Of a stretch of DNA of 64,000 nt, positions 14,825-22,386 are shown piece by piece. The translations under genes and the position numbers were made by a program. The notes below the pieces were generated by a model. The model ran no database searches and was not told the origin of the DNA. It was given only the letters and a program-made list of their open reading frames with translations. This DNA comes from an uncultured Acidobacteriia bacterium. GTDB lineage: Bacteria > Acidobacteriota > Terriglobia > Bryobacterales > Bryobacteraceae. The stretch is taken from the NCBI GenBank assembly GCA_903875575.1, contig CAIQWJ010000104.1, positions 1 through 64,000 on the forward strand, read 5' to 3'. Within the stretch, counting starts at the first letter, position 1, and each line of letters opens with the position of its first letter.

Positions 14825-16924
14825 TTACTTCACCGCCGGCAACGCAAACGCCACATAAACCCCACCCGACGTCCCGCCGCGCCCGCTCTTCCCGCCCGTT
14901 GCGTAAATCACCACAAACTGCCGACCGCCCACCTCATACGTAATCGGCGTCGCATTCCCCGCCATCGGCAGCGTGGTCTCCCACAGCAGCTTCCCGGTCC
15001 GCTTGTCGAACGCGCGAAACATCTTATCGAAGTTCGTCGCCGCAATAAACACCAGCCCGCCCGCCGTCACAATCGGCCCGCCGTAATTCTCCGAGCCCGT
15101 ATCCTTCAGCCCCTTCGCCGCCAGTTCCGGATACTCGCCCAGCGGAATCTTCCACGCATACTCGCCCGTGTTCAGGTTGATCGCATTCAGCGTGCCCCAC
15201 GGCGTCGCCACCGCCGGATACCCGTCCGGATCCAGCCACTTGTGATACCCGCTGAAACGATATGCCTGATTAATCCGCGCATCAGTCGCCGGCCCCGCGC
15301 TCGCCAGTTCTTTGTTATCGCCCGTCAGAACATACTGCGCCAGCGCGCTCGCCTCCGCCGCACTCAACCCAGGAAACGACGCCATCCGCCCGCCACCCTG
15401 CCGGATCATCGTCACCACCTGCTGCTCCGTCCGCTTCCCCCGAAGCTCCAGCAACGAAGGAAACTGCGGCGGCTGCCCCGCAAAATCCGCGCGATGGCAC
15501 GACGCGCAATTCGCGCTGTACAACTGCTCAGCCGACCGCGACCGCGCGGGCGGTGCCGGATTCAGGCTCGACGTCCAGGCCACATCATTCGCGTTCACAT
15601 AGTAAAGCCCTGTCTCGGGATCAAACGCCGAGCCACCCCACTCCGCGCCGCCGTCGAAACCCGGAAACACGACCGTCTCCTGCCCCACTGTCAGCGGCAC
15701 AAACTGGCCACCGCTTTGCAGTTTCGCGAATTGCTCCACCGCCCAATGATGCGCCTCCGGCGTGCGATTCGTCAGCATCTCCGCCGTCAACATCTGCCGC
15801 GCATACGGCGCGGGCTTCGTCGGCAGGCCCTGCGTCTCGGCGGTCACTTCACCAGGCACCGTACTCGCCGGATACTTCCGATACTCAATCGGAAACAGCG
15901 GCGCACCATTTGCGCGATCAAACAGATACAGCCACCCCTGCTTGCTTGCCTGCGCCACCGCATCCACAGTCTTGCCGTTGCGCTTGACCGTCACCAGCGT
16001 GGGTGGCGATGGGAAATCGCGATCCCACAAATCGTGCTTCACCGCCTGAAAGTGCCAGATCCGTTCGCCCGTATCAGCCTTCAGCGCCAGCAGTGTGTTC
16101 GCAAAAAGATCGTCGCCAATCCTGTCCGCCCCATAAAAGTCCGTCGCAGCAGACCCTGTCGGCACGTACACAATCCCGCGCTGTGCATCCACGGCCATGC
16201 CCGGCCAGTTATTCGCCGCACCCGAGTATTCCCACGCATCCTTCGGCCACGTCTCATAGCCAAACTCACCCGGATGTGGGATCGTGTGGAACTGCCACCG
16301 CAGCTTGCCCGTGCGCACGTCGTAAGCGCGAATGTCGCCAGGCGGAGCGGGCAGCGCCTCGGGGTTGCGACCACCCACAATCAGCAGATCCTTATAAACA
16401 ATTCCGGGACTGGTAATCACCCACGATTGTTTCGCGGCCTCGCGCCCCAGATCATCGCGGAGATCGATGCGTCCCGCGTGCCCGAAACTCTTAACCACCT
16501 CGCCGGTCTTTGCATTCAGCGCGTAAACGAAGCTCTGCACATCCGCAAAAATGCGCGCCTCGCCATCTTCCGCCCAATAGGCAACAGAACGATTCGGCCC
16601 ACTACTCTTCACTCCGGAATCGAACTGCCACTTGCGCTTTCCGGTTGCCGCATCGATCGCCACAATCCTGTGTGCCGGCGTCACGCCAAACAAAGCTCCG
16701 CCGATCATGATGGGCTGGTTCTGCGTGTCCCCCGAACCATCCTGCGTATCGTAAGTCCACGCCACCTGCAGCTTGCCGACATTGCGCGTATTGATCTGCT
16801 TCAACGCCGAGTAGCGGTTGTCCGCAGCACCGCCGCCATACGCAGGCCATGCGCGTTCCGGCCGGGTCGATGCCGCGTACGCAAGCGACAGAGCTGCAAT
16901 CAGAACAACAAACCAGACCTTCAC
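14825..16924 (-). CDS. PQQ-type quinoprotein dehydrogenase with embedded cytochrome c
   Basis: 699 residues with a signal peptide (1-17). The eight-bladed quinoprotein propeller shows W-motif repeats such as DAATGKRKWQF, DVRTGKLRWQFHT, KADTGERIWHFQAVKHDLWDRD and the late DKRTGKLLWETTLP, as in glucose/alcohol dehydrogenases using PQQ. A c-type heme domain (C473-A-S-C476-H477 with a later Met-containing segment) is inserted before the last propeller blades, which return at about residue 560, so electrons can pass internally from PQQ to heme. The start is GTG 16924, overlapping the ORF6N stop by 4 bases. No pqq biosynthesis gene is present in the window. Confidence 0.85.
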   Translation of the reverse strand: MKVWFVVLIAALSLAYAASTRPERAWPAYGGGAADNRYSALKQINTRNVGKLQVAWTYDTQDGSGDTQNQPIMIGGALFGVTPAHRIVAIDAATGKRKWQFDSGVKSSGPNRSVAYWAEDGEARIFADVQSFVYALNAKTGEVVKSFGHAGRIDLRDDLGREAAKQSWVITSPGIVYKDLLIVGGRNPEALPAPPGDIRAYDVRTGKLRWQFHTIPHPGEFGYETWPKDAWEYSGAANNWPGMAVDAQRGIVYVPTGSAATDFYGADRIGDDLFANTLLALKADTGERIWHFQAVKHDLWDRDFPSPPTLVTVKRNGKTVDAVAQASKQGWLYLFDRANGAPLFPIEYRKYPASTVPGEVTAETQGLPTKPAPYARQMLTAEMLTNRTPEAHHWAVEQFAKLQSGGQFVPLTVGQETVVFPGFDGGAEWGGSAFDPETGLYYVNANDVAWTSSLNPAPPARSRSAEQLYSANCASCHRADFAGQPPQFPSLLELRGKRTEQQVVTMIRQGGGRMASFPGLSAAEASALAQYVLTGDNKELASAGPATDARINQAYRFSGYHKWLDPDGYPAVATPWGTLNAINLNTGEYAWKIPLGEYPELAAKGLKDTGSENYGGPIVTAGGLVFIAATNFDKMFRAFDKRTGKLLWETTLPMAGNATPITYEVGGRQFVVIYATGGKSGRGGTSGGVYVAFALPAVK

Positions 16925-17550
16925 TTCCGGCTCCCGGCGCTCTCCGTCAGATGAAACCCGATCTTCTTTCGCGATACCGGAGGCAGCGCCTTCAGTTCCT
17001 GAAGATCCCGCTCAATCTGGTCGATATCATGCACCAGCATCTCAATCACCGACGCGGTTTGTGCATGACTTTTCTGCAGCTTCTCAATGCGCGCCCCCAT
17101 CTCTTTGTTCGTCGCGACAATTCGCCGCATCCGCACAAACGCGCGCATAATCGCCACGTTCATCTGCACGGCGCGCTCGCTGCGCAGCACGGAAGATAGC
17201 ATCGCCACGCCTTGCTCGGTAAACGCATACGGCTGGTACCGTCTTCCGCCCCACGCGCCACTTGAGGTTTCAATCTGCAACCTCAAGTTCTCGCTCTCCT
17301 TCTCGTCCAGTTGAAAAACAAAATCCTCCGGAAACCTGGTCAGGTTACGTCGCACGGCAAGATTGAGAGCCTTCGTCTGAACCCCATACAACCCTGCAAG
17401 CGTACTATCCAGCATCACCTTCTGCTGCCGGATCACATGAATCAGATTCTCCATCGGAGTAATGAGCGCAACGGCCTTAGCGGGGCGTTTCGTTGCTTTC
17501 GCGGTTTTCGCTGGTTTCGCGGCCGCGACTTTTTTGCGTATAGTTGCCAC
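16921..17550 (-). CDS. ORF6N domain DNA-binding protein
   Basis: 209 residues from GTG 17550. A Lys/Ala/Pro-rich tail leads into an ORF6N domain (IRQQKVMLDSTLAGLYGVQTKALNLAVRRN, then RFPEDFVFQL, LRLQIETSS and AFTEQGVAMLSSVLRS), followed by a coiled-coil C-terminus. ORF6N is a phage-derived putative DNA-binding domain found in stand-alone chromosomal genes; its targets are not known. The gene carries an inverted repeat (17260-17288) that recurs in a perfect palindrome just upstream (17574-17616). Its end overlaps the quinoprotein start (GTGA), an unexpected operon partner. The open frame extends to a TTG at 17607 inside the palindrome, so an earlier start is possible. Confidence 0.8.
   Translation of the reverse strand: MATIRKKVAAAKPAKTAKATKRPAKAVALITPMENLIHVIRQQKVMLDSTLAGLYGVQTKALNLAVRRNLTRFPEDFVFQLDEKESENLRLQIETSSGAWGGRRYQPYAFTEQGVAMLSSVLRSERAVQMNVAIMRAFVRMRRIVATNKEMGARIEKLQKSHAQTASVIEMLVHDIDQIERDLQELKALPPVSRKKIGFHLTESAGSRK
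17260..17288. repeat. Inverted repeat inside the ORF6N gene
   Basis: ACTTGAGGTT (17260-17269) and AACCTCAAGT (17279-17288) form perfect 10-base arms around a 9-base spacer. It encodes the conserved LRLQIETSS segment of ORF6N. The same arms with the same 9-base spacing occur in the palindrome at 17574-17616 (core 17581-17609). Confidence 0.85.
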
Positions 17551-17573
17551 CGGCAACAGTCTATCGCAAACGA

Positions 17574-17616
17574 AAAGAGCACTTGAGGTTTCAGACTGAA
17601 ACCTCAAGTGCTCTTT
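17574..17616. repeat. Perfect 43-base palindrome upstream of the ORF6N gene
   Basis: Left arm 17574-17594 begins AAAGAGCACTTGAGG; right arm 17596-17616 is its exact complement; a single A at 17595 is the centre. Arms are 21 bases. It lies between the ORF6N start (17550, minus) and the end of the DUF4097 gene (17659, minus). It may act as a terminator-like hairpin, an operator, or a REP-like mobile palindrome. Its core matches the inverted repeat within the ORF6N coding sequence. Confidence 0.9.
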
Positions 17617-17658: not shown

Positions 17659-18624
17659 TTACTTCTTGTGGATCAGAATGTTCCCGTTCATCGTCTGGAA
17701 CGTATACTCCGGTCCTCCTCCGTTGATCGTGCCCGTCACAGCTTTATCCACGGTGATCTTGTACTTCCCGCCTGCACGCGCTGCCACTCGATCCCGACTT
17801 CGCTGCGCCGCAGTCAGTTCCCTTTGCGCCGCCACCACTTCCGGATGGCTCCTGGTTCTCGATTTGAGAAGCTCCTGCAGCCTGGCCTCGGCCGCCGCAA
17901 TATCCTTATCCATCTGCGCCAGTTCCGGCGGCGTTGGCTGTCCCCGCGTATCCTCAATGATCGGCTTCGCTGCGTCCGCTTCCAGCTTCACGTCGAAGTC
18001 GCTGTAGATCGCTCCGTTATCCGTTTTCATCCGCAGCCGCGCCTTCGCATCCCCCGGCAGCGTCACATCCACCTTCCCGTTCAGCGACGTAAACGACATC
18101 GGCTTATTCCCCGTCACGCGTTCCATCGAGACCGTCACCCCGCCATTCAGCGTGTGCGCCACCACTGACCCGGATACATTCGTCATCGTAATCGACCCGT
18201 TCAGATTCTCCACTTCCAGATCCCCGTTGACGCCTGTCACTTCAATGCTGCCACCACTGACCGTCTTCAGCTGCAGATTCGTATTCGCCGGTGCCTCAAT
18301 CGTCAGATCCGCGCCCGCCCCCGCTCCGCCCGCCGAAATCGTCACTACATTGTGGTCTTCCTCCACGTTCAGCCCGGATCGGCTGCCGATGCGCTTCATT
18401 CCCGGAGGCGCGGCATCCTGATTGCGCGATCTTGAGCCGCCTTCGCTCGTCGTCACCACAAGATCCTTACCTGTCCCTCCCGTCACCCGAATGCTGCCGG
18501 AAACCAGATTCGCCTTCACTGTCACAGGCTGTGCCGGATTCGAAATCGGCACCGTGATCCTGTCCTGCGCCGCAGCACCCGCCACACAACAAACCGCGAC
18601 CGCAACTAAGTTATGAATTCGCAT
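17659..18624 (-). CDS. Secreted DUF4097-like beta-repeat protein, second copy
   Basis: 321 residues from ATG 18624, one base after the previous gene's TAG, so translation is coupled. A signal peptide (MRIHNLVAVAVCCVAGAAA) precedes repeated short strands of the DUF4097/DUF2807 type (VKANLVSGSIRVTG, LQLKTVSGGSIEVTGVNGDLEVENLNGSITMTNVSG, FTSLNGKVDVTLPG). A coiled-coil insert (AQMDKDIAAAEARLQELLKSR) interrupts the fold before a last strand pair. These right-handed beta proteins are common under ECF sigma control in this group; their role is unknown, possibly envelope sensing or adhesion. Confidence 0.75.
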   Translation of the reverse strand: MRIHNLVAVAVCCVAGAAAQDRITVPISNPAQPVTVKANLVSGSIRVTGGTGKDLVVTTSEGGSRSRNQDAAPPGMKRIGSRSGLNVEEDHNVVTISAGGAGAGADLTIEAPANTNLQLKTVSGGSIEVTGVNGDLEVENLNGSITMTNVSGSVVAHTLNGGVTVSMERVTGNKPMSFTSLNGKVDVTLPGDAKARLRMKTDNGAIYSDFDVKLEADAAKPIIEDTRGQPTPPELAQMDKDIAAAEARLQELLKSRTRSHPEVVAAQRELTAAQRSRDRVAARAGGKYKITVDKAVTGTINGGGPEYTFQTMNGNILIHKK

Positions 18625-18625
18625 C

Positions 18626-19486
18626 CTACTTCGCTCCCTTTTTAATCTGAATCGCAGCATTCACCGTTTCCAGCCGGATATGCGGCCCTCCCGCGCCTAC
18701 CCTGATATGCGACTCCCCGCGGTTCTTATAAACGAATCGCCCATTCTCTTTCGTCGCCGCACCAGTCCCTGATGCCACCATGGTCGACTCAAAATCCGTG
18801 AACATGCCGCCGTTCACCGTCTTCAGGTCGAAGTCCGCCGCCAGGTTCGCCGGGAACGTCAACTCGATCCGCCCGTTCACCGACGTAAACGCACTATCCA
18901 CCTTCGGGCTCTCGCGGAACGAGACCACATTCGCCCCATTCACTGCCGCCGCCGTGCCCGACCCCGCCATATCCGTCATCGCAATCGCGCCATTCACGCT
19001 CCTGACGTCAAACGCACCCGAAGTTTCCCGTGCCGTCACCCCGCCATTCACCGTCCGCAAATGCAGCGCCGTCTCGCGCGGCACGTGTACCGTAATCTCA
19101 TAGCTCACCGAATAGTGCCGATCCGAATTCTCATGGAACCCGTGATAGTCGCTCGACCGGTTGTTTTTGCCGCGATACGGGCCGTTCTCGTAAATCTGCG
19201 CCGTCCCGTCCTTCTCGTTCAGGTCCAGCGCGACTTCCTTCTTCGCCCGCGTCATCTCTTCGGCGTTCAGGGCGCGAATCACGCGCTCACCCTCCACCCG
19301 CAAGGTGCCTCCCGCGCCGTCGCCGATCACCGTGACGTTGCCGCTGATCAAATCCACATCGAGCGTCTTATCGCCGCTGAAAGTATGCCGAACCGGCTCG
19401 CGATCCTCCACCTTGTAATCCTGAGAAGAAGCTGCGCCAAGCAGGGCCGCCAGTCCAACAATGCCGAAGCATAATCTGTAATTCAT
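18626..19486 (-). CDS. Secreted DUF4097-like beta-repeat protein, first copy
   Basis: 286 residues from ATG 19486, preceded by AAAGG. A signal peptide (MNYRLCFGIVGLAALLGAASS) is followed by the same repeated pattern as its neighbour (VDLISGNVTVIGDG, LHLRTVNGGVTARETSGAFDVRSVNGAIAMTDM, FTSVNGRIELTFPA, IRLETVNAAIQIKK). The two genes look like a tandem duplication that has diverged. It lies 53 bases after the anti-sigma gene on the same strand, and that gap contains a widespread dispersed repeat (19502-19530). Confidence 0.75.
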   Translation of the reverse strand: MNYRLCFGIVGLAALLGAASSQDYKVEDREPVRHTFSGDKTLDVDLISGNVTVIGDGAGGTLRVEGERVIRALNAEEMTRAKKEVALDLNEKDGTAQIYENGPYRGKNNRSSDYHGFHENSDRHYSVSYEITVHVPRETALHLRTVNGGVTARETSGAFDVRSVNGAIAMTDMAGSGTAAAVNGANVVSFRESPKVDSAFTSVNGRIELTFPANLAADFDLKTVNGGMFTDFESTMVASGTGAATKENGRFVYKNRGESHIRVGAGGPHIRLETVNAAIQIKKGAK

Positions 19487-20334: not shown

Positions 20335-20900
20335 GACGCTTTCTCCTTCCGTAATTCGTGAAACACCTGCCCCATTTCCTTCATAGCGCGAAACACCCGC
20401 ACCTTCACGGTGCCGGGCTCGCAGCCTACAATCCGTCCAATTTCTTCGTAAGTCAAACCCTGAAACCGGCTCAGCACGATCAGTTCGCGCTTCTCGTCCG
20501 GCAAGCCCCGCAGCGCCTTGTGCAGCAACGCCAGATCCTGCTGCTTCACAACGGAATCGAGCGGCGTGGGCCTTGTGCTTTCCACCAACTCCATCTGCCC
20601 CTCAACCGCCGGAATCTCCAGCCTGTGCCGCTTCGTGTGATCCGTGAAGACATTGCGCGCGATCCGGTACATCCACGCTTCAAACAACTCTCCGGCCCTA
20701 TAAGTTTGCCGATACCGCATCATTCGGAGAAACACCTCATGAGTCAGATCTTCCGCCGGTGCCTGCCGCCCCACCATGCGAAAAAAGAAACGGAACAGCT
20801 GACGGTTCCGGCGCGCGTAGATCTCGCTCATCGCCGCCAGATCGCCGCCCGCCACCGCCACCATCAGTTCGTGGTCTGTGTTTCCGTTCACCGTGTTCAT
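20331..20900 (-). CDS. ECF-type RNA polymerase sigma factor
   Basis: 189 residues. Region 2 ([55 protein letters not shown]) and region 4 ([44 protein letters not shown]) are both complete. It heads a four-gene minus-strand operon with a zinc-finger anti-sigma factor and two DUF4097-like proteins, which are its probable targets as well as partners. Direct repeats immediately upstream (20927-20962) may be its own promoter or operator. Confidence 0.92.
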
Positions 20901-20926
20901 TCAGGTTAACCGCGCGGCCGGGCAAA

Positions 20927-20962
20927 GGTTACAGTGGATTTTCAGGCACGGGTTACAGTGGA
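20927..20962 (-). promoter_or_regulatory. Candidate control region with direct repeats before the ECF sigma gene
   Basis: GGTTACAGTGGA occurs at 20927-20938 and again at 20951-20962, starts 24 bases apart. On the minus strand this gives two TCCACTGTAACC copies upstream of the sigma ATG at 20900. TGTAACC resembles the AAC-containing -35 elements of ECF promoters, which fits autoregulation. The region is shared with the divergent dcm gene. No clear -10 element was identified. Confidence 0.4.
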
Positions 20963-20971
20963 ATCTTACTG

Positions 20972-21970
20972 ATGCCCGCCCCCTTCACTTTTATAGATCT
21001 TTTTGCCGGCATCGGCGGCTTCCGCGTCGCTCTCGAAAAACTGGGCGGCGAGTGTCTCTTCTCTTCCGAATGGGACAAGTATTCCCGTCAGACCTACGAA
21101 GCCTGGTTCGGCGAGGCCCCCCACGGCGATATCAACCAGATCAACATCGCAGCCATCCCGGATCACGACCTCCTGGCTGCCGGCTTCCCCTGCCAGCCCT
21201 TCTCCCTCGCCGGAGTCTCCAAGAAGAACAGCCTCGGCCGGGAACACGGCTTCCGCGACGCCACCCAGGGCACCCTCTTCTTCCGCCTCGCCGAAATCAT
21301 CGAAGCCAAACGCCCCTCCGCCATCCTGCTCGAAAACGTGAAGAACCTCCGCTCGCACGATAAAGGCCGCACCTGGCGCGTCGTCCGCGACACGCTCGAA
21401 GAACTGGACTACTGGGTCTTCACCGACGTCATCGACGCCGCCGGCTGGGTCCCGCAACATCGCGAACGCGTCTATATCGCAGGTTTCGACCGCCGCCGCT
21501 TCCCCGGCCTCCCGGACTTTCGCTTCCCCTCGCCGCCGCCGTCCCGCCCGGCATTCGGCGACATTCTGGAGTCCTCGCCAAGCCCCAAATACACACTCAC
21601 CGAGCACCTCTGGGAATACCTGCAGGCCTACGCTGAAAAACACCGCGCCAAAGGCAACGGCTTCGGCTTCGGTCTGGCCGACCCCAAAGGCGTCTCCCGC
21701 ACCCTCAGCGCCCGCTATTACAAGGATGGCGCCGAAATCCTCATCGCACAGGGCACCGACATACCGCCGCGCCGCCTGACCCCGGCGGAATGCGCCCGCC
21801 TGATGGGCTTCGACATCACGCACGGCAGGAAAATCGTAGTCTCGGACACCCAGGCCTACCGGCAATTCGGCAACGCCGTCGTGCCGAAGGTGATTGAAGC
21901 CATCGGCAGGCAGATCGTCGAAGTTCTGGAAAGCCCGCCCCGGCCCGCCGCCGTCTTCGAGCTCACGTGA
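20972..21970 (+). CDS. dcm: DNA cytosine-5 methyltransferase
   Basis: 332 residues. Motif I is [15 protein letters not shown], motif IV contains the catalytic cysteine C74 in GFPCQPFS, motif VI is ILLENVKNL, motif VIII is [10 protein letters not shown], and motifs IX-X ([29 protein letters not shown]) close the fold. ATG 20972 starts right at the conserved domain. It is followed with a GTGA overlap by a vsr gene, as for Dcm/Vsr. No restriction endonuclease gene is adjacent, so it acts as an orphan methylase or has lost its partner. The recognition sequence cannot be inferred. Confidence 0.92.
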
Positions 21971-22386
21971 CGGACGTCCACACCCCCGCCCAGCGCAGCT
22001 ACAACATGTCGCGCATTCAGGGCCGCGACACCAAACCCGAACTTCTCGTCCGCCGCCTGCTCCACGGCTTAGGCTTTCGCTACCGCCTGCACGTCAAAGA
22101 TCTCCCCGGCAAGCCCGACCTCGTCTTCCCCCGCTCGAAAGCCATCCTGTTCGTGCACGGCTGTTTCTGGCACATGCACCGCTGCAAATACGGCAAACCC
22201 GCCCCTGCTACGAACAAAACGTTTTGGGCGGAAAAGCGACGCTCCAACGTCGACCGAGATAAGCGCAATCGACGCCAACTCCGCGCCGCCGGCTGGCAGG
22301 TTTTCGAGATCTGGGAATGCCAGACGCGCGAACCCGAAACCATGCGGGCAAAACTGACGAAATTGATCGAACTCCTCGGAGCCTAA
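21967..22386 (+). CDS. vsr: Very short patch repair endonuclease Vsr
   Basis: 139 residues. Vsr nicks at T:G mismatches formed by deamination of 5-methylcytosine, here those made by the overlapping methyltransferase. Diagnostic parts are the N-terminal [33 protein letters not shown], the catalytic [24 protein letters not shown] with D and the HGCFWHxHxC zinc-type motif, and [25 protein letters not shown]. The start GTG 21967 overlaps the methylase stop by 4 bases; the end shares CTAA with the convergent gene. Confidence 0.93.

Follow-up and report, generated by a model that had tools for sequence, protein, structure and literature searches.

A palindrome inside the coding sequence of ORF6N genes co-varies with the predicted recognition helix of the encoded proteins

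The window analysed here is the whole stretch of 64,000 nucleotides (64 kb) from an uncultured Acidobacteriia bacterium, in which a minus-strand ORF6N gene lies between a PQQ-dependent dehydrogenase gene and a DUF4097 gene. The features of this locus are listed below, without strand in the case of the palindromes.

14825–16924, minus strand: PQQ-dependent dehydrogenase gene, directly downstream of the ORF6N gene, its GTG start overlapping the ORF6N stop codon
16921–17550, minus strand: ORF6N gene with the proposed (inferred) GTG start, 209 amino acids
17239–17244, minus strand: both arginines of GGRRY in the predicted wing, equivalent positions of which co-vary with palindrome bases 10 and 11
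17260–17288: internal palindrome of 29 nt in the ORF6N coding sequence, encoding the flexible loop LRLQIETSS
17344–17376, minus strand: codons of TKALNLAVRRN, the recognition helix predicted from the structure model and covariation
17359–17361, minus strand: L, helix position co-varying with palindrome base 4
17368–17370, minus strand: A, helix position co-varying with palindrome base 5
17371–17373, minus strand: K, helix position co-varying with palindrome base 7
17386–17409, minus strand: codons of DSTLAGLY, first helix of the helix-turn-helix predicted by the structure model
17574–17616: upstream perfect palindrome of 43 nt with its core at 17581–17609, a proposed promoter-proximal operator
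17659–18660, minus strand: DUF4097 gene, upstream of the ORF6N gene, its stop codon 42 nt before the 43-nt palindrome

The 43-nt palindrome preceding the ORF6N gene has one central base with all 21 pairs matching, and its 29-nt core is found again within the gene, at a distance of 321 bp. An earlier note on this DNA had claimed both the perfect palindrome and a core repeated with identical arms and spacing, and direct comparison of the internal 29-mer with the upstream core (26 of 29 positions identical) bears this out. Its description of a 10-9-10 inverted repeat is correct for arms and spacing but understates the symmetry, since, of the 13 positions scored on either side of the centre, 12 are paired in the internal copy; that copy is imperfect at base 4 (TG/TT). 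The segment LRLQIETSS of the ORF6N protein is indeed encoded by the internal copy, as had been proposed. The arm pattern ACTTGAGGTT-9-AACCTCAAGT occurs at exactly two sites in the window, 17260–17288 and 17581–17609, with a chance expectation of 0.00 (100 shuffles of the window, up to 3 mismatches), and the genome-wide search for the core that the note had recommended, made in the organism's own genome (5.98 Mb in 110 contigs, 98% complete), revealed no copy beyond these two at up to 3 mismatches. A REP/RAYT system was rejected, the many dispersed palindromes of such a system not being met in a genome with two copies at this threshold.

The longest reading frame begins with TTG at 17607 and comprises 228 amino acids; however, the GTG at 17550 (MATIRKK) is judged, by inference, to be the likelier start, and would place the centre of the upstream palindrome at −45. 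The observation that the upstream palindrome reads in frame with the gene thus holds only with the TTG start and is probably incidental. No sigma-70-like promoter was detected around the ORF6N gene of the window.

The protein of the window belongs to PF10543 (ORF6N), with 109.7 bits against a cut-off of 27.8 (E 8.8e-32). Among the related Rha and phage anti-repressor families (PF09669, phrog_4792) it matches phrog_4792 (E 4.5e-25) and PHROG anti-repressor families, its match to Rha being below the cut-off. The stretch 16921–17550 also matches the PADLOC family PDC-S05 (E 2.4e-57), which from PADLOC's naming is presumably a candidate defence family. In the structure model, residues 13–20 and 24–33 form the two helices of a predicted helix-turn-helix pair, the second of them being the predicted recognition helix, and residues 73–76 form a strand. 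The palindrome-encoded peptide appears in the AlphaFold model as a low-confidence loop of the ORF6N domain, and only the C-terminal tail is otherwise comparably weak. A sequence search of the PDB found no significant relative (best E 0.25), and fold matches to the PDB with Foldseek were weak (best E 0.21).

Two relatives (L049 and L050) have no ORF6N gene between the PQQ-dehydrogenase gene and the DUF4097 gene, which are direct neighbours there; it follows that the gene was either gained in the window or lost in the relatives as a unit. The flanks of both relatives are too diverged for the insertion junction to be fixed, and in three others (L051–L053) BLAST found the DUF4097 side only. Farther along the window, adjoining reading frames at 20759–22386 resemble, by eye, a cytosine-5 DNA methyltransferase and a Vsr-type mismatch endonuclease.

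Other ORF6N genes were found to have a matching palindrome, as the earlier note had asked. The DNA that encodes the loop motif LRxQxxTS in 106 genes of many phyla forms a palindrome in which on average 11.94 of 13 pairs match, as compared with 4.92 of 13 under a null of synonymous recoding of the same genes; the pairing of every one of the 106 genes (range 9 to 13) exceeds its own null mean. These genes come from 111 loci that were retrieved solely through protein or Pfam searches, 14 of 120 HMM hits having been dropped for missing anchors. A larger set of 134 distinct genes, partly fetched by the palindrome pattern itself and obtained after dropping 18 of 152 whose anchors were not found, comprises two genes with 9 pairs, five with 10, 33 with 11, 47 with 12 and 47 with 13. 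On a parsimony tree of these 134 genes built without the motif, and counting only states that remained Watson-Crick, 186 changes of pair state were obtained over eight pair positions, the minimum numbers at pairs 4, 5, 7, 8, 10, 11, 12 and 13 being 52, 25, 23, 21, 14, 13, 4 and 34, respectively. Both arms change in concert and the amino acids of the loop vary along with them; at the level of sequence, the symmetry of the palindrome is maintained by paired changes.

The position of the palindrome is conserved across phyla, and in nine genes (L046, L354, L359, L363, L366, L408, L414, L421 and L422) the palindrome is read in a different frame and encodes another peptide. Taken together, the frame changes, the covariation of the loop and its low confidence in the model indicate that it is the DNA that is constrained and the loop peptide that yields. 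Eleven homologous copies in the Epilithonimonas mollis family, including second copies in two genomes, keep the palindrome, and these copies have 2.4–3.4 kb of flank in common with 74–100% identity around the site. In seven loci (L022, L074, L079, L086, L101, L130 and L132) a tandem, in-frame second motif was seen by eye in the loop.

Given the strong complementarity within the transcript, and the copies located directly after stop codons in some loci, the conserved feature could be an mRNA hairpin acting in translation control or stability. The types of mismatch do not agree with this. Among pairs 2–13, the G-T mismatches that RNA tolerates number 10 versus 35 for A-C, whereas synonymous transitions from perfect sites would yield 168 to 249. 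On these grounds a hairpin of the sense strand was rejected, and since a hairpin predicts no protein residues either, very little credence is left for it.

Protein residues are, however, what the palindrome follows. The loop was removed from the 134 proteins, the remainder was aligned, and the mutual information of each protein column with the variable palindrome bases was calculated. The dominant column, with 1.89 bits (z 42), is the residue aligned with the leucine at 17359–17361 in the TKALNLAV helix of the window protein. This helix residue predicts palindrome bases 4 and 5, with Q corresponding to CA, E to CG, K to TC and R to GC. In the 114 of 134 rows with intact pairs 4 and 5, which form the basis of these figures, Q is found in 52 of 53 CA rows (the remaining one has a gap), E in 32/32 CG rows, K in 11/11 TC rows and R in 10/10 GC rows, and rarer dinucleotides make up the other eight rows; the thinnest class is L, with six fitted genes and one outside the fit. 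In a second column of the recognition helix, R occupies all 32 CG rows, and a third (K or R/S/F) tracks pair 7; pairs 10 and 11 are tracked by two residues within GGRRY. The key helix codon is located 70 nt from the palindrome, so that the link between residue and base does not result from coding overlap. As far as comparison of sequences can establish it, the variable bases of the palindrome are predicted by the recognition helix and, less strictly, by the wing, both outside the palindrome-encoded part, and helix and own-gene palindrome evolve as lock and key. The idea that the DNA of the motif is also a recognition site gains support from this covariation, no binding data being at hand.

The code was also evaluated on 58 genes outside the fit, taken in part from Pfam positions and some of them from genomes shared with it, while 21 HMM stretches (fragments, and some intact genes in which no anchors were located) remained unscored. 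Both arms were predicted correctly in 51 genes, one arm in three and neither in four. Two of the four misses are L381, a parsing error whose helix fits the code, and L362, a divergent member with a GG palindrome; the L440 gene of Legionella fallonii has the same two helix residues (D and K) as L362 and likewise GG. Two genes without an internal palindrome have upstream ones of the class that their own helices predict, namely L410 with three (at −242, −144 and −37) and L426 with two (at −200 and −91). Of the palindromes in a shifted frame, those of L354, L359, L363, L366, L408, L421 and L422 obey the code on both arms and that of L414 on one. The link to pair 7 was found again in the genes not used for fitting, where those of the wing were less tight. 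A tree of 182 genes, from which the loop and six helix residues had been left out, requires a minimum of 80 changes of the helix residue and of 62 changes in palindrome class. Independent contrasts across supported branches agreed in 16/16 cases for Q/CA and in 16/16 for E/CG (p 3e-5 each); the pairs for R (mean 4.6 of 5), for K (3 of 4) and for L (2 of 2) are too few for significance.

At seven of 12 plasmid and phage loci, the gene or its upstream region contains a fitting palindrome in which 10 or more of 12 pairs match. One of the seven, from Segatella hominis, has two further copies that misfit. L437 fits by eye, its helix having been missed by the regular expression; L440, with the GG palindrome mentioned above, is also among the 12; L432 and L433 have no palindrome of at least 10/12 pairs, and L435 only an unrelated one. 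On the Treponema plasmid of L437, the ORF6N gene was seen to be flanked on one side by a DNA methyltransferase gene, together with a small gene of the winged-helix type, and on the other by the gene for a restriction subunit S.

Template-switch repair is known to correct quasi-palindromes, and it could in principle keep a chance palindrome symmetric without any function. Such a process cannot yield a residue-to-base code, frame-shifted palindromes or upstream substitutes, and hardly any credence at all can be given to it.

Within 700 nt outside the ORF6N domains, 57 palindromes were found, 43 of them upstream and 14 downstream. Of the 51 that could be classified, 33 agree with the class of the protein closest to them and 18 do not; shuffling gave a mean of 15.2 and did not reach 33 in any of 5000 rounds. 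For this scoring the code was widened after the fact, admitting TC or GG for K and GC or AC for R. In an earlier count, in which sites internal to adjacent ORF6N genes were also included, 184,777 nt of near sequence contained 50 copies and 401,708 nt of far sequence eight; 29 of the 50 fitted (shuffled mean 16.0, maximum 26 in 2000 shuffles). An extra palindrome lies near 41 of 183 genes and none was found for the other 142 in the stretch examined; no promoter has been mapped. The upstream copy of the window has TT/TT half-sites, as expected for helix residue L, and for this reason a promoter-proximal operator is its best reading; the suggestion of an operator in the earlier note is supported to that extent, in the absence of binding data.

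Alternatively, the 43-nt copy could be mainly the transcription terminator of the DUF4097 gene. A T-rich stretch follows the stem on the minus strand, and at the equivalent place of L050 (about 2260–2420) a stem-loop followed by a T run was seen by eye. The 43-nt copy was not among the hits of a terminator scan (loop of 3–8, at least 5 T in 8), however, and its TT/TT half-sites agree with the class of the neighbouring ORF6N protein. A mainly terminating function is accordingly held to be unlikely, although it retains some weight, and the roles of operator and terminator could coexist at this site.

The generalised pattern TTNARRTNNCANNNTGNNAYYTNAA was met at 41 places in 121 genomes of the taxonomic family, compared with two for a backward-read control. 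As judged from loci and Pfam positions, 38 of the 41 are in or beside ORF6N genes or fragments; the remaining three are in G014, G055 and G119:C8, and that of G055, which is imperfect, is probably a chance match. In other phyla, 23 of 25 zero-mismatch places are in ORF6N domains among the matches listed, the exceptions among them being G140:C20:55935 and G145:C11:74351. Solitary bacterial copies are thus G014:C2:2189, G119:C8:113247, G140:C20:55935 and G145:C11:74351, and two further solitary copies, G137:C2:320935 and G153:C410:1646, mismatch the pattern. A dispersed mobile repeat was rejected for cellular genomes, where the copies are tied to ORF6N (38/41, and 23/25 among the matches listed). 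An element of the Rickettsia type (RPE) was likewise rejected, dispersed copies in unrelated genes not being met with 38/41 places at ORF6N, although viral contigs differ.

Viral contigs gave at least 125 motif matches versus eight for a base-swapped control pattern, and at least 74 matches with at least 10 of 11 pairs versus one for the control. Among the matches listed, the 74 viral copies divide into 11 near ORF6N, 11 duplicates, 29 intergenic copies and 23 in other reading frames, so that 52 of 63 distinct, well-paired copies among the matches listed have no detectable ORF6N gene nearby. Possible identities of these copies are operators for ORF6N proteins from other loci, terminators and remnants. 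The earlier note had regarded a palindrome that is common without any link to ORF6N genes as refuting its proposal; this is not what cellular genomes present, but the viral contigs, with those 52 of 63 copies among the matches listed, do depart from the expected link. In intergenic stretches of several viral contigs (among L160–L279), the form TTGAGGTCTCAATTTGAGACCTCAA was seen to recur.

The same copies bear on a selfish coding palindrome, resembling RPE or PARCEL elements, that would insert in frame into tolerant loops and favour ORF6N by accident. The disordered loop, the tandem in-frame motifs seen by eye in seven loci, the viral copies without ORF6N (from at least 125 matches versus eight in the control) and the few solitary bacterial copies are all compatible with it. 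The fixed position across phyla, the retention in homologous copies and the 38 of 41 copies at ORF6N in 121 genomes are not, and the helix-base code would be left unexplained, which makes this origin very unlikely. Of the mobile palindrome that the earlier note had considered for the upstream copy, only partial support remains, from the in-frame tandem motifs and the flanking copies.

It is most likely that ORF6N proteins bind the palindrome in their own gene; this is drawn from the recognition code, its tests and the upstream substitutes, there being no measurement of binding. With considerable confidence, although autoregulation itself is inferred, it is proposed that ORF6N proteins are winged-helix-turn-helix-like DNA-binding proteins that recognise the own-gene palindrome as an intragenic operator, together with upstream copies in some loci. 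The recognised palindrome would have about 25–29 bp and would form part of the coding sequence of the protein itself, specifying the domain's disordered loop. A dimer presumably binds the internal site and, once bound, would block elongation or damp transcription through the gene; where upstream copies exist, it may act at the promoter or by looping. The window would have both sites, the intragenic operator and the promoter-proximal copy. With the ORF6N stop overlapping the dehydrogenase start, bound protein would by inference also obstruct transcription into the dehydrogenase gene. The gene would be a self-contained autoregulated unit, keeping its operator wherever it is inserted, and the lack of another good site in the window's genome suggests that the main target of the protein is itself.

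The internal site may be bound for a purpose other than transcription, in the manner of an origin, a centromere or an immunity-like self-recognition. ORF6N genes are present on plasmids and phages, no further genome copy of the window palindrome (up to 3 mismatches) makes a regulon visible, and the window protein matches the presumed defence family PDC-S05. A precedent is RepC of repABC plasmids, which like the ORF6N proteins is a DNA-binding protein with its target inside its own coding sequence, but there the target is the replication origin, and the accessible part of the source describes no loop-encoding palindrome or residue-base code (PMC2783167). Against such a purpose, the extra copies are mostly upstream (43 of 57) and the two genes without an internal site have upstream ones, both of which correspond to an operator layout, and the small Segatella copri plasmid has a separate replication protein. 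A non-transcriptional purpose is therefore considered quite unlikely, without being dismissed. On that plasmid (L442, 4.1 kb), the only genes listed, in a gene table that may be incomplete, are that of the replication protein and an ORF6N gene whose palindrome is of its own class.

The preferred reading, an intragenic operator, has known counterparts. In the lac system, O2 lies inside lacZ and O3 upstream, and an operator within a coding sequence cooperates with a promoter-near one, as is proposed for ORF6N; unlike there, O2 lies in the regulated gene and not in the repressor's own gene. Likewise, parS lies inside spo0J. The stoperators of Cluster A mycobacteriophages are repressor sites that block elongation and, as in ORF6N, site and repressor diverge together; in contrast to the ORF6N palindrome, they are, according to the portion of the source available, asymmetric, scattered over the phage genome and not found in every repressor gene (PMC6550527). 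RPE, WPE and PARCELs are palindromes translated as part of protein loops or repeats, which resembles the situation in ORF6N, but they occur in many unrelated host genes, and no cognate DNA-binding protein is mentioned in the accessible text (PMC2996958). In the literature on ORF6N, seen in part, no DNA target or recognition code was apparent, nor was such a self-encoded palindrome in the equally partial literature on KilA-N, Bro-N, intragenic operators and binding to the own coding sequence, subscription papers being mostly outside its scope.

Members of ORF6N are found in bacterial phyla, phages and plasmids and are mostly annotated only as 'ORF6N domain-containing protein'; most of them now receive a predicted DNA target directly from sequence, and a naturally diversified protein-DNA recognition code is on offer. 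One coding sequence is constrained for two readings, with the protein loop yielding to the DNA site even by a change of frame. A possible reason for an internal operator is that regulation is kept after horizontal transfer, or that the own kind is recognised. Since nearly every ORF6N copy carries the predicted site of its own protein, a resident protein could recognise incoming kin. It is a rather doubtful conjecture, offered as such, that a resident ORF6N protein silences incoming genes or phages whose specificity equals its own, that the code evolves as a mating-type-like or immunity specificity, and that the phage palindromes are targets or decoys.

No evidence for an insulation of paralogues from one another was drawn from their half-sites. 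Paralogues within a genome had a half-site in common in 0 of 140 pairs, versus 1.8 expected, which is not significant (permutation P 0.13), and the count is biased towards 0 by the removal of pairs identical in site and helix. The window's genome itself has, on another contig (C74:19827–19955 of G000; L004, L136), a truncated ORF6N paralogue without the helix-turn-helix part, which keeps a CA-class palindrome related to but unlike that of the window.
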